NCBI RefSeq assembly: GCF_007747655.1
Contig: NZ_CP036274.1
Span: forward strand, 7,688,001 to 7,752,000
Direction of reading: 5' to 3'
Length of the DNA: 64,000 nucleotides
Source: Anatilimnocola aggregata
GTDB taxonomy: Bacteria > Planctomycetota > Planctomycetia > Pirellulales > Pirellulaceae
A program made the position numbers and the translations under genes. This document shows, piece after piece, positions 21,820-57,785 of this stretch; position 1 is the first letter of the stretch, and each line of letters starts with the position of its first letter. The notes under the pieces are model-generated. The model was not told the DNA's origin. It did no database searches and saw nothing but the letters and a program-made list of their open reading frames with translations.

Positions 21820-23406
21820 GTGACCAAGGACGATATGGAGATCGTGTCGGCTGTGCAATCTGCACTGCTTGGCAAGGTCGGTGAAAATCGATTTCGAATG
21901 TGGGCGACCGAAGGCGTCACCTGGCGGGCGAACGGCCCCCAGTTGTCGTTACTGGCTCACAATACTTTCCGCCTGGAACGGCTACGCCGATTGCGCGCGG
22001 ACGTTTTGGCCGCTGCTCAGCAAGTGCTGGGTGCGCAAGCCACCGTTGATATGAAGGTCTGTGAAGCGAATGTAGCGACGGCGGATTCGACCGCAGTTTC
22101 TCGGTCCACGCAGCCGATGAATGTTTCGCCCACTATGCCAGCCGCCACTCTCTCATCTCCGCTCTTATCTGCCGCTGCAACTTCCAGCGCAGGGCTGTCT
22201 CAACCGGGACCGCAGGTCGCGCCGGTTCTTGCGCCACAGGCCAATGAGTCGGCCAATCCACTGCCGGTCATATTCCGTTTGCCGAGTGTGGCCCCCTCAG
22301 GTAACAATGGTTCTTCGTCGAACCCCGCCGCCGCTCCCTCTGATCCGCCCCCTGCCAATCGAATGACCCGTCGAACCTTTGCTGCCCTGGATTCGTTTGT
22401 TGTGGGAGAGGGGAATCGCCTCGCGCATGCGGCAATCAACAACCTGCTCTCGCAGCTGGGCCGCTATTCGCCGCTGTTCATTTCCGGTCCGCCCGGGTGC
22501 GGCAAGACGCACCTGCTCGAAGGTGCCTGGCGAGCCGCACGGCAAACCGCCCCCAACCGCCGGACGATTTATCTGTCGGCCGAACAATTCACGACACAAT
22601 TCGTCGAAGCGCTCCGCGGCTCCGGTCTCCCCAGCTTTCGCCGCAAGTATCGAGACGTCGAACTCCTCCTGATCGACGATCTGCAGTTCTTCATGGGCAA
22701 GCAGTCGACCCTGGTCGAACTCCAGCACACGGTCGATACACTCCTCCGTTCCGGTCGGCAGATTGTGTTTGCCGCTGACCGCACTCTGGGTGAACTAAAG
22801 AATCTGGGGAGTGAACTCGTCCATCGCATTTCGGGCGGTCTGGTGTGCGCCATCGATGCCGCCGATATGCAGACTCGCTTGGGCGTGCTCGAACAAATGG
22901 CTTCCAGGCACTCGACCCCGACGCCGCGCACCGTGCTCGAATGGCTTTCGACTCAGCTCGATGGCGATGCCCGCCAATTGGCCGGCGCGCTTAACCGCCT
23001 GCATGCCACGAGCGAAGCGCTGCACTGCCGCATCGACTTGCCCTTTGCTCAGCGGGCGCTGGCCGACCTGGTTCGCGTTAATCGCCGTGCCGTTCGCCTG
23101 ACCGATATCACCAGCACCATTTGCGATATGTTCGGCATCGACGAGCAGTCGTTGCAGTCCGAAAGCAAGTCGCCCGCTGTCAGCCATCCCCGCATGCTCG
23201 CGATGTGGCTGGCCCGCAAATACACCCGCGCTGCTCTGTCCGAAATCGGCAAGCACTTCAACCGCAAGAGTCACACCACGGTGATCTCGGCCGAAGACAA
23301 AGTCAGCCAATGGCTCATCAGCGGCAAGAGTCTCCTCCTTCCCGAAGGAGACTGCCGCCTGGAAGATGTCGTCAAGCGCGTCGAAAACCAACTGCGCTTG
23401 GCTTAG
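21820..23406 (+). CDS. dnaA: Chromosomal replication initiator DnaA
   Basis: 528 residues in the standard DnaA layout. Domain I (residues 1-85) is followed by an unusually long, Ser/Ala/Pro-rich linker of about 100 residues. The AAA+ core has Walker A GPPGCGKT near residue 223 and Walker B LLLIDDLQFF. The C-terminal helix-turn-helix carries the DnaA signature as NRKSHTTVISAEDKV. The AAA+ core opens with FVVGEGNRLAHAA, as in other DnaA proteins. The start may be GTG 21820 or ATG 21835; AAGGA lies just before the ATG, but the GTG is kept because domain I usually begins that far upstream. No dnaN or gyrB follows, which fits the scattered dnaA loci of planctomycetes. The gene has its own promoter and leader hairpin. 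Confidence 0.93.
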   Translation: MTKDDMEIVSAVQSALLGKVGENRFRMWATEGVTWRANGPQLSLLAHNTFRLERLRRLRADVLAAAQQVLGAQATVDMKVCEANVATADSTAVSRSTQPMNVSPTMPAATLSSPLLSAAATSSAGLSQPGPQVAPVLAPQANESANPLPVIFRLPSVAPSGNNGSSSNPAAAPSDPPPANRMTRRTFAALDSFVVGEGNRLAHAAINNLLSQLGRYSPLFISGPPGCGKTHLLEGAWRAARQTAPNRRTIYLSAEQFTTQFVEALRGSGLPSFRRKYRDVELLLIDDLQFFMGKQSTLVELQHTVDTLLRSGRQIVFAADRTLGELKNLGSELVHRISGGLVCAIDAADMQTRLGVLEQMASRHSTPTPRTVLEWLSTQLDGDARQLAGALNRLHATSEALHCRIDLPFAQRALADLVRVNRRAVRLTDITSTICDMFGIDEQSLQSESKSPAVSHPRMLAMWLARKYTRAALSEIGKHFNRKSHTTVISAEDKVSQWLISGKSLLLPEGDCRLEDVVKRVENQLRLA

Positions 23407-25496: not shown

Positions 25497-25727
25497 CTAC
25501 CCCCAAGCTCCCGGCCTCACCGTCCGGTCGATCTGCTCTAAAGGCCAGAAGAAAAGAACGGCATAAGGTCCGCACCCACGATAACCCGACACGAACACCG
25601 TCACCTCGTGCCCTTGGTACATGGCGCGAATAGGAACGTGCTCAACTAGTGCGAAATAGCTCCCCACGTACAGCACCGGCAGGAGCAGCAAGACGATGGC
25701 AACGATGAGGGGTGCGCGGTTGGTCAT
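25497..25727 (-). CDS. Small membrane protein, copy 1
   Basis: 76 residues of unknown function. Residues 5-28 (APLIVAIVLLLLPVLYVGSYFALV) form one membrane helix or uncleaved signal; the remainder ends FWPLEQIDRTVRPGAWG. It is a close paralogue of the gene at 26147: the first 27 codons are nearly identical in DNA, and both share the WPLEQIDRxVRPGAW tail. The ATG overlaps the TGA of the 58-residue gene upstream (ATGA). Four such small genes lie in a row on this strand. No domain is recognised. Proteins of this WPLE-tailed type seem to be planctomycete-specific, which is an inference from their character, not a search. Confidence 0.65.
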   Translation of the reverse strand: MTNRAPLIVAIVLLLLPVLYVGSYFALVEHVPIRAMYQGHEVTVFVSGYRGCGPYAVLFFWPLEQIDRTVRPGAWG

Positions 25728-25900
25728 GGCTCTGGGTCAATCGGTACAACCATCCGCTCGGGGACAAATCCATGGTTGCTGACGACAGGCTCCAATGAGC
25801 CTGTCTGAATATTCCACTTCTCCCAAGCACGGTAGGCGATAGCGCACGTCGGCCCGGCCAGTAGCATAAAGAGAAGCAGCGTTTGGAGTGAGAATCGCAT
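25724..25900 (-). CDS. Short secreted or membrane protein (58 residues)
   Basis: Read directly from the reverse strand; below common size cut-offs. The start MRFSLQTLLLFMLLAGPTCA is a hydrophobic signal or anchor, and the MRFSLQTLLL opening is very common among small planctomycete proteins. The rest (YRAWEKWNIQTG to PIDPEP) has no known domain. Its TGA overlaps the ATG of copy 1 by four bases, which supports translation of both. A 40-base block just upstream (25905-25948, with GCCCCGCTAGAGTT) is repeated at 26685-26727, upstream of the third gene of this group, so the locus arose by duplication. Confidence 0.55.
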   Translation of the reverse strand: MRFSLQTLLLFMLLAGPTCAIAYRAWEKWNIQTGSLEPVVSNHGFVPERMVVPIDPEP

Positions 25901-26146
25901 CAACCCATTCTACCCGCGCACGAAAATGCCCCGCTAGAGTTGCGGGGCAAGGTAGTGGGTTAGTTTGAAATCAGAAATTCTTAGCGAGTGAGAACTATTG
26001 ACCTACTAGCTGAACTATCGATGGATGTCAGGTTGCCAAACTTGGTTAACCGAGCCGCTTGCGGCCGTTGAACTGGTGGTTCGCTTGTTTGTATTTCGCC
26101 CGCGCAAGCGCGTGAGTTAACCAGATGACATTGAGCGCTAGTTGGC

Positions 26147-26374
26147 CTACTTCCATACTCTTTCCCACGGCAGTTCCCAGGCTCCCGGCCTCACCTTCCG
26201 GTCGATCTGTTCCAGCGGCCAGTAGACGAACTTCGCCCAATCACCATCAACTCGATAGTGATAGACTTTGCCAAATGCTATTCCATGAATTGAATCGTCT
26301 ACGACCGGTATTCGGCCCGCCGGCACCACCAGCGCCAGATAACTCCCCACGTACAGCATTGGCAGGAGGAGCAA
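26147..26374 (-). pseudogene. Small membrane protein, copy 2, with lost ATG start
   Basis: Paralogue of the gene at 25497. Homology continues upstream of any normal start: the codon matching the ATG of copy 1 is AAG at 26410-26408, followed by the same ACC AAC CGC GCA CCC series. A TAG lies eight codons upstream in frame. Translation could only begin at TTG 26374 (coordinates given) or ATG 26359 inside the membrane helix. The body and tail (YWPLEQIDRKVRPGAWELP) are intact, so either the gene is newly inactive, uses a rare start, or is translated by coupling to the preceding gene, whose TGA ends at 26412. I call it a probable pseudogene, with moderate certainty. Confidence 0.5.
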
Positions 26375-26411
26375 GACGATGGCGACGATGAGGGGTGCGC
26401 GGTTGGTCTTT

Positions 26412-26681
26412 TCAATTGGTCGCAGAATCTATCTCCTCTGCGGTGAATATCTCCGTTTTGGCCCCTGTTATCCATTCCTCAATACCAGCCGCAGGGCGAT
26501 AAATAAGGACCATCCACGAGCTTGGGTAATCGCGCACGATTCTTCGACGACCATCCACCGCATCCCAGGTCACAAATTTTCCTAGCAATAGATACCCCGC
26601 CCCATACGCACATATCAGCAGTAGGAGCATAACTGTTAAGGCTGCGATGATCGACCCGGCGGATGATCGTGTTTTGTCCAT
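26412..26681 (-). CDS. Small membrane protein of unknown function
   Basis: 89 residues. One membrane helix at about residues 10-35 (IIAALTVMLLLLICAYGAGYLLL) follows a short charged N terminus (MDKTRSS). The soluble tail holds WDAVDGRRRIVRDYPSSWMV and ends EEIDSATN. It resembles the two neighbouring small proteins in size and layout but shares little sequence. Its stop lies two bases before the codon where copy 2 should start, so it may once have been coupled to it. No domain is recognised. Confidence 0.55.
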   Translation of the reverse strand: MDKTRSSAGSIIAALTVMLLLLICAYGAGYLLLGKFVTWDAVDGRRRIVRDYPSSWMVLIYRPAAGIEEWITGAKTEIFTAEEIDSATN

Positions 26682-26756
26682 CTCCCAATTCTACCCGCGC
26701 ACGAAAATGCCCCGCTAGAGTTACGGGGTGGTGAGGAGAAGGCTGGGCGGGCAAAC

Positions 26757-26863
26757 GGCAAAAGGGGGGTGTCCAACAATGTGTGTCATTGTTGGACAGT
26801 ACCGAGCGCAACTCTCGGGTTTCCGAGCATTTGGTGTCCAACAATCGGGGGCATTGTTGGACA
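26757..26863. repeat. Double-palindrome intergenic element, copy A
   Basis: GGCAAAAGGGGGG leads into palindrome 1: TGTCCAACAATG (26770-26781), loop TGTGT, CATTGTTGGACA (26787-26798). A spacer with AACTCTCGGGTTTC follows, then palindrome 2: TGTCCAACAAT (26835-26845), seven bases, ATTGTTGGACA (26853-26863). Both palindromes have the same arms. Copy B at 40003-40108 has the same plan with different but self-complementary arms. Confidence 0.8.
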
Positions 26864-26931
26864 ACTTGGTGCAAATCGGCGGTCGGGATCTCGCCGTTTG
26901 GTGACGAGCCACGGGGAATCGCGGCAGAGAA

Positions 26932-39907: not shown

Positions 39908-39927
39908 CCAACTCACCGCCTTAAACG

Positions 39928-39967
39928 CCACCGCCCCTGCGGCGGTGGCTCGTTGGCTTGTGCACTA
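39928..39967 (+). repeat. CCTGC-loop hairpin with tail, single copy
   Basis: CCACCGCC (39928-39935), loop CCTGC, GGCGGTGG (39941-39948), then TCGTTGGCTTGTGCACTA. Half-unit of the family seen complete at 41955-42052, 44861-44965 and 50008-50104. It starts 20 bases after the mqnD stop. Confidence 0.7.
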
Positions 39968-40002
39968 CCCGGCCGCTCGACCGTCCCTTTCATAGCCAAG
40001 CC

Positions 40003-40108
40003 GCAAAAGGGGGGTGTTCAATTAAGAGTCGCTTAATTGAACAGCAGATGGCTTAACTCTCGTGTTTCACGGCGATGAGTGTTCAACAATGCAGGGTCAT
40101 GTTGAACA
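40003..40108. repeat. Double-palindrome intergenic element, copy B
   Basis: GCAAAAGGGGGG leads into TGTTCAATTAAG (40015-40026), loop AGTCG, CTTAATTGAACA (40032-40043). The spacer carries AACTCTCGTGTTTC. The second palindrome is TGTTCAACA (40080-40088) and TGTTGAACA (40100-40108). Lead, stem length, loop length and spacer match copy A at 26757; the stem sequence differs at four positions, all compensated. The rest of the gap before the CotH gene (40109-40255) shows nothing else recognisable. Confidence 0.8.
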
Positions 40109-40255
40109 TTTACGTTCAAACTGAGCGGCTGCCTGAAGGGGTGGTCCCAGCTTGCAATTCGCGCGGGCATGTAACAGACTCGCTAAAGAGGGCCACTGAT
40201 TGGTGGTTGGCGACTGGCCCAGTTTGAATCTCTTCGCCCGCGGAGTTTGTGCGTT

Positions 40256-41905: not shown

Positions 41906-41954
41906 AAAGTCGCTTTTGTCCTTCGCTTACTTGCGCCCCCGCTGCTTACTTCCG

Positions 41955-42052
41955 CCCCCGCCCCTGCGGCGGGGGTTGATTGGCTTTTGCACTGGACTGT
42001 AATTACCGATCCTAGCGCAAAACCCAATGAACCACCGGGGCAGGCCCGGTGG
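41955..42052. repeat. Paired CCTGC-loop hairpin element 1
   Basis: Forward hairpin CCCCCGCC-CCTGC-GGCGGGGG (41955-41975), tail TTGATTGGCTTTTGCACT, about 20 unique bases, then the inverted tail GCGCAAAACCCAATGAA and reversed hairpin CCACCGGG-GCAGG-CCCGGTGG (42032-42052). The two halves face each other. Lies between the CotH and ABC genes. Confidence 0.8.
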
Positions 42053-44860: not shown

Positions 44861-44965
44861 CCCCCGGGCCTGCCCCGGGGGTTTAACGGCTATTGCGATA
44901 CTTAGAACGAAGCTCGCAATAGTCGCATTGCGCAAAAGCTAATGAAACACCGCCGCGGAGTCGCG
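44861..44965. repeat. Paired CCTGC-loop hairpin element 2, partly degenerate
   Basis: Forward hairpin CCCCCGGG-CCTGC-CCCGGGGG (44861-44881), then TTTAACGGCTATTGCGA. The second half is degenerate: GCGCAAAAGCTAATGAAACACCG and a hairpin CCGCG-GAGT-CGCGG. Between them a perfect 9-bp dyad CTATTGCGA (44890-44898) and TCGCAATAG (44914-44922) is unique to this copy. Confidence 0.7.
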
Positions 44966-49966: not shown

Positions 49967-50007
49967 CAGCGCATCCTTGCTGAAGGTGATCTTGCTTTGT
50001 CTTACCA

Positions 50008-50104
50008 CCCCCGGGCCTGCCCCGGGGGTTCATTGGCTTTTGAACTAGGGCCACTCGATCAAGGTAGTGCAAAAGCCGCTAAACCCCTGCCGCAGGGGCA
50101 GGGG
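50008..50104. repeat. Paired CCTGC-loop hairpin element 3
   Basis: Forward hairpin CCCCCGGG-CCTGC-CCCGGGGG (50008-50028), tail TTCATTGGCTTTTGAACTA, about 20 bases, inverted tail TAGTGCAAAAGCCGCTAAA, reversed hairpin CCCCTGCC-GCAGG-GGCAGGGG (50084-50104). It fills the gap between nadK and the secreted-protein gene and may end nadK transcription. Confidence 0.8.
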
Positions 50105-57498: not shown

Positions 57499-57550
57499 GT
57501 AAGAGAGTGAGGAAGAAACTGTCCCGACTTCGCCCGATTTTTGCGCAACT

Positions 57551-57656
57551 CACAAAAGGGGGTGTTGATAAACCCGCTGAGCTTTTCGACCTCAACGAGC
57601 GCCATTCCCGAGAGTTGCGCGGTTTGACTCGGAAAACGCAGGCCAGTTAATCAACA
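57551..57656. repeat. Possible divergent third copy of the double-palindrome element
   Basis: ACAAAAGGGGGTGTTGAT (from 57552) matches the lead of copies A and B. Its outer arms are TGTTGAT (57563-57569) and ATCAACA (57650-57656). The interior holds CCCGAGAGTTGCGC, the exact complement of a 14-base stretch in copy A. The inner palindromes are lost, so membership is uncertain. From 57657 to 57785 nothing further is recognised. Confidence 0.4.
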
Positions 57657-57785
57657 AACAGGATGATTTCAGCAGTCGTCATTGACGATTAGGCACTCAA
57701 AACTCAAAGTACAACCTGCGTTGCCTTTCAACTCCCATCGCCGGCAATTGTCTCTGAACTCGAAACCTAGAACTTCGCATCTCTC

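Follow-up and report, generated by a model that had tools for sequence, protein, structure and literature searches.

What keeps the arms of a dispersed palindrome matched while their sequence changes, and does the arm sequence carry a specificity that differs from copy to copy? These questions are raised by a double-palindrome element in the genome of the planctomycete Anatilimnocola aggregata (9,007,740 bases, a single contig), two copies of which, A and B, lie in the 64,000-nucleotide stretch analyzed here (hereafter the window; positions 7688001–7752000 of contig NZ_CP036274.1). A preliminary description of the window proposed that selection acts on the symmetry itself, either as RNA structure or as a paired protein-binding site.

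Architecture of the element

Copies A and B, both on the forward strand, share one plan: a lead of six G (G6) and a tail enclose two 29-nt palindromes, which are separated by a 36-nt spacer with AACTCTCGNGTTTC. Copy B spans positions 39997–40129 (contig 7727997–7728129) and scores 120.4 bits (E 1.1e-32) with model R1 and 119.6 bits with model R2, both of which were built in part from copy B. It reads AAAAGGGGGG-TGTTCAATTAAG-AGTCG-CTTAATTGAACA, followed by the 36-nt spacer with AACTCTCGTGTTTC, then TGTTCAACAATGCAGGGTCATGTTGAACA and the tail TTTACGTTCAAA. The G6 lead (40009–40014) is conserved in alignment A1. Hairpin 1 (40015–40043) shows covariation and consists of 12-bp arms, TGTTCAATTAAG at 40015–40026 and CTTAATTGAACA at 40032–40043, around a 5-nt loop; the core word AACTCTCGTGTTTC (40055–40068) was both read directly and counted genome-wide; and hairpin 2 (40080–40108) is followed by the tail (40109–40120), for which the family consensus is approximately TTTAGGTTGAAA.

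Copy A (26752–26884; 130.3 bits with a model built in part from copy A) follows the same plan, with the G6 lead at 26764–26769, hairpin 1 at 26770–26798, the core at 26810–26823 and hairpin 2 at 26835–26863; its first stem is TGTCCAACAATG, loop TGTGT, CATTGTTGGACA, and both of its stems have TGTCCAACAAT arms. Read directly, the first stems of the two copies differ at four of twelve positions, each with a matching change in the opposite arm, as had been claimed. The preliminary description called the arm changes fully compensated, which is accurate for stem 1 but too broad for stem 2 of copy B, where the nine outer positions pair and the next two do not. The G6 lead and the spacer word AACTCTCG(T/G)GTTTC are indeed retained in both copies. 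A third, decayed copy, C, occupies 57545–57677 of the forward strand (contig 7745545–7745677; 44.7 bits, E 2.5e-8 with model R2). It has a G5 lead (57558–57562) and outer arms TGTTGATAAAC (57563–57573) and GTTAATCAACA (57646–57656); its inner arms are eroded and its core is inverted (CCCGAGAGTT).

The window has two other kinds of repeats. A tandem duplication (25502–25947 and 26176–26728, 83–92% alike in blocks) has a second copy that ends about 24 bp before the span of copy A, and a family of short repeats at 39926–39966, 41953–41993, 44861–44895 and 50006–50046, perhaps terminators, combines a G+C-rich hairpin with a following TTGGCTTTTG-like sequence.

Copy number and distribution

Model R1 is a covariance model built from the 65 copies of alignment A1. 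With the best 150 of 1534 candidates scored in the own genome, it gave 150 matches on both strands. These reduce to 106 places, the weakest at E 0.034; the remaining 44 are opposite-strand, overlapping or fragmentary matches at the same places. Model R2, built from alignment A2 of 25 diverse copies chosen by hand, adds at least 13 places, copy C among them, which brings the family to at least 119 places in this genome. Five more elements were recognized by eye beside terminal-motif sites (loci L255, L256, L280, L286 and L290), and three short forms have one hairpin only. Genome-wide, there are 68 occurrences of the core word with at most one mismatch, compared to 3 of its reversed control. A scan for two hairpins of 27–31 nt, 30–43 nt apart, returned 55 cases in 522,710 bp, a sample composed of the window and loci around copies and hence enriched; 54 of these are at known copies, and the loci gave none when recast by a first-order Markov model.

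Outside this genome the family is scarce. Model R1 found matches in two of 60 genomes, the own genome and one of the same genus, with up to 56 candidates scored per genome, and in the same two among 397 genomes of the class, where 8 candidates were scored per genome and weak families could escape. The single match in the same-genus genome (L089; E 5.2e-9 with R1, 4.8e-11 with R2) has two 29-nt hairpins 37 nt apart with different arms. Because it lacks the G6 lead and the core word, it may be either a distant relative of the family or a look-alike; its flanks had no match among the own-genome loci around copies. In a looser double-hairpin scan of L089 and L118–L206 (625,921 bp from other planctomycetes and the same-genus genome), the rows other than L089/L206 look by eye like terminators or coding matches, with 8 in the Markov control. 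Viral contigs, searched with one exact pattern, and plasmid and phage records, searched by distant blastn, gave no family match.

Symmetry and concerted change of the arms

Under shuffles, which take no account of relatedness among copies, the symmetry of the arms is maintained across the family. In alignment A1, 87.7% of 1493 cells are paired compared to 81.1% after shuffling, and double-changed cells number 134 against 73.8. The hand-picked copies of A2 give 90.2% against 75.2% paired and 77 against 27.9 double-changed cells, and at one pair, where no cell is broken, a switch from C-G to G-C is found in 10 of the 25 copies. Of the five measures applied to A2, the pair count and the pair-type count fail to beat the shuffles (182 and 332 of 500, respectively, reach the observed value). 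Long-range pairing of the outer arms also covaries, as expected if one word is common to all four arms.

The preliminary description expected compensated changes to outnumber single ones, and the outcome differs between the hairpins. Relative to the commonest pair in 98 of the 106 copies, those of near-full length, hairpin 1 has 143 compensated changes, 58 one-sided broken, 37 one-sided paired and 19 both-changed broken, that is, 143 compensated against 95 single; in hairpin 2 the relation is reversed, with 82 compensated, 142 one-sided broken, 77 one-sided paired and 27 both-changed broken (82 against 219). The expectation also fails between the 10 closest reciprocal pairs of copies (identity of at least 78%), where one-sided changes number 24 and compensated ones 2: the 27 changed arm pairs include 7 one-sided changes that still pair, 16 one-sided changes that make or break a pair and 2 pairs broken in both copies. 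Because one-sided changes prevail between the closest copies, single steps seem to come first, with compensation accumulating slowly.

In addition to the pairing within each hairpin, we detected concert between the hairpins. Each copy carries the arm word four times, with the orientation alternating, and, as had been suggested, arm words are shared by groups of copies: a handful (TGTTCAACAAT, TGTCCAACAAT, TGTTCAATTAA, TGTTGAAAAAG, TGTTGATAAAT and intermediates) recur, and the two hairpins of a copy tend to match. Within a copy, the left arm of hairpin 1 differs from that of hairpin 2 at 1.64 of 11 positions, compared to 2.88 after shuffling (reached in 0 of 2000 shuffles). When the nearest relative was chosen by non-arm columns, which reduces the effect of ancestry, hairpin 1 was closer to the copy's own hairpin 2 than to that of the relative in 48 cases, farther in 14 and tied in 36 (sign test, p 1.7e-5). 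The likeness of a copy's own two words beyond ancestry is also apparent from a partial Mantel correlation of 0.345, reached in 0 of 1000 permutations. The loops show no concert between the hairpins (their observed values are reached in 154 and 386 of 2000 shuffles), which identifies the arms rather than the entire hairpin as the matched unit. In a small group of copies (e.g. c6077899, c8928820, c8138419 and c2994679), the outer arms match each other and the inner arms have drifted.

Constraint and genomic context

The 98 aligned copies have a mean pairwise identity of 60.5% and a maximum of 92.5%. Between the 10 close pairs, changes affect 12 of 278 positions in the outer arms, 19 of 160 in the inner arms and 30 of 137 in the loops, as well as 12 of 140 in the core, 44 of 224 in the spacer, 6 of 60 in the G6 lead, 21 of 123 in the 5' lead and 21 of 120 in the tail. 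With sites taken as independent, the outer arms differ from the loops at p 1e-7 and the core from the spacer at p 0.004. This sparing of arms and core would reflect selection either on the resident copies or on formerly active lineages.

By the calls of an ORF caller trained on the loci around copies, 101 of the 106 copies lie between two genes, 4 are unplaced and 1 overlaps a call. The neighboring gene is on the strand of the element in 54 of 101 cases on the 5' side and 59 of 101 on the 3' side, with no clear orientation preference. Among intergenic gaps of at least 120 bp, those with a copy (n = 100) comprise 52 tandem, 27 divergent and 21 convergent gaps, and those without (n = 99) comprise 62, 32 and 5, respectively; divergent gaps are not significantly avoided. 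The convergent excess (p 0.0012 against the copy-free background, 0.066 if copy gaps are counted in the background) is confounded by gap length because an insert lifts short convergent gaps over the 120-bp limit, and it therefore leaves our odds for the competing readings unchanged. For gaps of at least 300 bp, 11 of 81 with a copy are convergent compared to 2 of 27 without. With the origin assumed at the DnaA match, since GC skew is too weak in the sampled loci, the copies show no replichore bias (56:50), so that a lagging-strand mechanism is without support. The best Bac_DnaA match of the genome is in the window, at about 22384–22848 (contig 7710384–7710848), and a weaker one is at base 175 of the contig.

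Ends and candidate mobilizers

An outer inverted terminal motif, CGACGTAAGT/ACTTACGTCG, is present at both ends of 19 of the 106 copies with at most 4 mismatches in total. Ten of these are arranged one way and all measure 165–167 bp, eight are arranged the reverse way (151, 163, 164, 183, 184, 185, 186 and 214 bp) and one has both motifs in the same direction. Allowing 2 mismatches, the motif is absent on both sides of 69 of the 106 copies, A and B included. Mismatch counts place the core in the direction of the lead in 90 of the 106 copies and in the opposite direction in 5, 4 of them with ends arranged in the first way; for 11 copies they leave the direction undecided. The inner 9-mer (CTTACGTCG/CGACGTAAG) has 14 exact occurrences in the 522,710 bp of window and surrounding loci, every one of them 7–71 bp from a copy; genome-wide, CTTACGTCG is not enriched (66 sites compared to 108 for the reversed control). 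The element was recognized in 7 of 40 loci around 43 further CTTACGTCG sites, with 9 sites left out. One pair of exact CTTACGTCG sites stands in opposite direction 0.3–6 kb apart, with one end within an ordinary reading frame.

Twenty flank pairs, a few of which may be chance pairs, show no target duplication (mean 0.95 compared to 1.01 shuffled), although duplications may have decayed; their absence fits the Y1 class of enzymes. No empty site was found; at the place of copy B, genome G001 is rearranged, with the two flanking genes about 430 kb apart, and so offers no comparison. About ten copies are alike well past the presumed ends, to about 215 bp beyond the core, and part of the family may therefore have moved as a longer unit. 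The loci L009, L011, L016, L022, L023, L028, L049 and L054 have a further stretch in common downstream of the element, which includes TGGGATGCTTGCCTGGTTCGATC and may form a CCTGGT/ACCAGG pairing.

The genome has seven matches to Y1_Tnp. Five of the loci have a perfect inverted repeat of 21–32 bp around the gene, a sixth has several of 12–13 bp and the seventh none; several of these repeats are self-complementary by eye. Across about 1.5 kb on each side, the seven loci lack the core, the lead and the TGTYCAA hairpin, and matches to the terminal motif with 2 mismatches occur at about chance frequency, with one on each side at L081. A scan with transposase profiles covered six of the seven matches, five of them as the matched stretch only; one protein scores above the cut-off for REP-associated tyrosine transposases, and a second is just above the one for IS200/IS605. 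TTAC, the target of IS608, is contained in ACTTACGTCG, which we take only as a lead. The loci L082, L084, L085, L086 and L087 (and L081) represent different TIRtron-like units within one genome, and the frame at L082 has a stop codon.

An IS21-like element was also considered as a partner and rejected, its ends (TGTAAACGACGG...) being unrelated to those of the family. No autonomous partner bearing the family ends was found at the seven Y1 loci or in this element. The element, named by eye, is about 2.63 kb long (positions 42–2672 of L247), and the three loci compared (L247, L248 and L249) hold copies 99.96–100% identical. It may still be active, given that its helper gene has matches of equal score at 17 places.

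Discussion

These observations are, in our judgment, probably best explained by an old, dispersed, non-autonomous mobile element of about 167 bp, similar in kind to MITEs, REPs or CIRs, in which a single DNA-binding protein, probably the transposase of the element, has the four arms as its half-sites. This transposase would once have spread the element, and the symmetry would be kept if the protein binds as a dimer or if the transposase reads the strand as a hairpin. The likeliest mobilizer would be a tyrosine (HUH, Y1) transposase, given the lack of target duplication and the presence of Y1 genes, each set between inverted repeats of its own that are often self-complementary. The few coexisting words could then be a record of shifts in the specificity of the binding protein. 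Spreading appears to have slowed, because even the closest two of the 98 aligned copies share only 92.5% of their positions. The resident copies may still be constrained and could thus have a use for the host, such as anchoring proteins.

The claim that symmetry itself is under selection survives in part: the excess of double-changed cells stands, and the RNA form of the claim is disfavored. If the element encoded structured RNA, as hairpins that stabilize or terminate mRNAs or as a small RNA with two stem-loops, one could point to the folding of both strands, which is better than that of shuffled sequences (z −3.8 for copy B and −4.9 for copy A on the plus strand, −3.0 and −6.1 on the minus strand), to the predominance of G-T over A-C among non-Watson-Crick arm cells on the plus strand (26:18 in hairpin 1, 58:21 in hairpin 2) and, with the caveat on gap length, to the enrichment of convergent gaps. 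However, the minus strand folds about as well as the plus strand, two columns (25:1 and 15:2) contribute most of the wobble excess in hairpin 2, and Rfam 15 has no match at gathering score in the window and only sub-threshold ones near copy B. Because, in addition, neighboring genes are almost balanced in orientation and divergent gaps show no significant avoidance, we consider an RNA role unlikely. Nor do we give much weight to a domesticated DNA site, on the pattern of chromosome-organizing or nucleoid-protein sites such as the E. coli REP/BIME, in which selection would act on binding whatever the origin of the repeat. The sparing of arms and core between close pairs, the limited identity of even the closest pair and, again subject to gap length, the preference for convergent gaps would all agree with such a role, but constraint inherited from formerly active lineages is expected to leave the same signal, and a single match in the same-genus genome would be odd for a housekeeping function.

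Symmetry could also arise by mutation, with no selection on it, if, within a quasi-palindrome, template switching rewrites one arm to match the other. Such switching is reported in E. coli, in the part of that account available to us (PMC7202029), and would also account for inner arms copied from outer arms. We nevertheless regard it as quite improbable here: the core word is spared too, although it is not a palindrome arm; the loops that adjoin the arms are not homogenized; changes between close pairs are mostly one-sided and make or break a pair; and palindromes 65 nt apart would not be easily homogenized.

Compared to known systems, the element of mobile origin that we favor has several relatives in kind. 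Integron attC sites generally all carry RYYYAAC and GTTRRRY boxes; this candidate was rejected because the words TGTTCAATTAA, TGTTGAAAAAG and TGTTGATAAAT break the boxes, and the copies are scattered across the genome and do not form arrays. The methyltransferase-associated intergenic repeats (CIR) of Caulobacter, as far as the accessible text of their description goes, are intergenic, about 110 bp long, composed of two long stem-loops and a linker, unlike other bacterial repeats, conserved between alphaproteobacteria and marked by GANTC (PMC2229807). Our family likewise has two stem-loops and a linker in about 110 bp of intergenic sequence; it differs in that, among the genomes searched, it was matched only in one planctomycete genome and at a single place in a same-genus genome, in the outer inverted termini of some copies and in the lack of GANTC from its consensus, copy B reading GAGTC at the loop. 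For REPINs, compensated change in dispersed bacterial palindromes has already been reported, judging from the portions of that literature at hand. The lead of our family is G6 in the consensus, not a GTAG-type tetranucleotide 5' of the palindrome, and no RAYT linked to or flanked by the family repeat was found at the seven Y1_Tnp loci (about 1.5 kb on each side). TIRtrons, or TIRYTs, are described in the available excerpts (PMC3733652) as Y1 transposases flanked by inverted repeats, some double-palindromic, that can form dispersed families. The Y1 genes of this genome carry flanking repeats of the kind so described, but their seven loci are without family sequences, and the GGGGWSAS motif given in those excerpts is unmatched by GGGGTGTT.

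Bacterial MITEs (Correia/NEMIS, ERIC, RUP), in the sections of the sources that we could draw on, are intergenic elements of less than 200 bp with terminal inverted repeats (PMC2229807, PMC10969869). In agreement with these traits, the family is short, dispersed and intergenic, and a minority of its copies, though no more, have inverted repeats at their termini with a fixed spacing. By contrast, it shows no target-site duplication in the 20 flank pairs and no autonomous relative was found, and it carries four internal copies of a changing arm word. Furthermore, its termini read CGACG, where most MITEs listed in those sections have 5'-TA-3', and its G+C content is about 50%, where MITEs are called A+T-rich.

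We propose tentatively, as a somewhat unlikely extension of the mobile-element reading, that a transposition or binding system has a recognition word written four times per copy and rewritten in concert at all four places, such that one genome would keep a radiation of coexisting specificities on a common scaffold, each with its own protein variant. Our literature searches found no description of this repeat family, and the search for the terminal motif gave unrelated subjects among the matches listed; we have not seen the concerted arm words, the sequence family or the terminal motif described in the literature searched, although the kind of element is known. Concert of arm words between two separate palindromes, with drifting loops, is apparently a new pattern. 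It makes a change of partners between repeat and binding protein testable within one genome, as each word predicts a binding protein of its own. A second kind of double palindrome, with AGGTCACATCG / AGGTTACATCC arms, is present at L220 (contig 3147128–3147213), 175 bp from a copy of the family.
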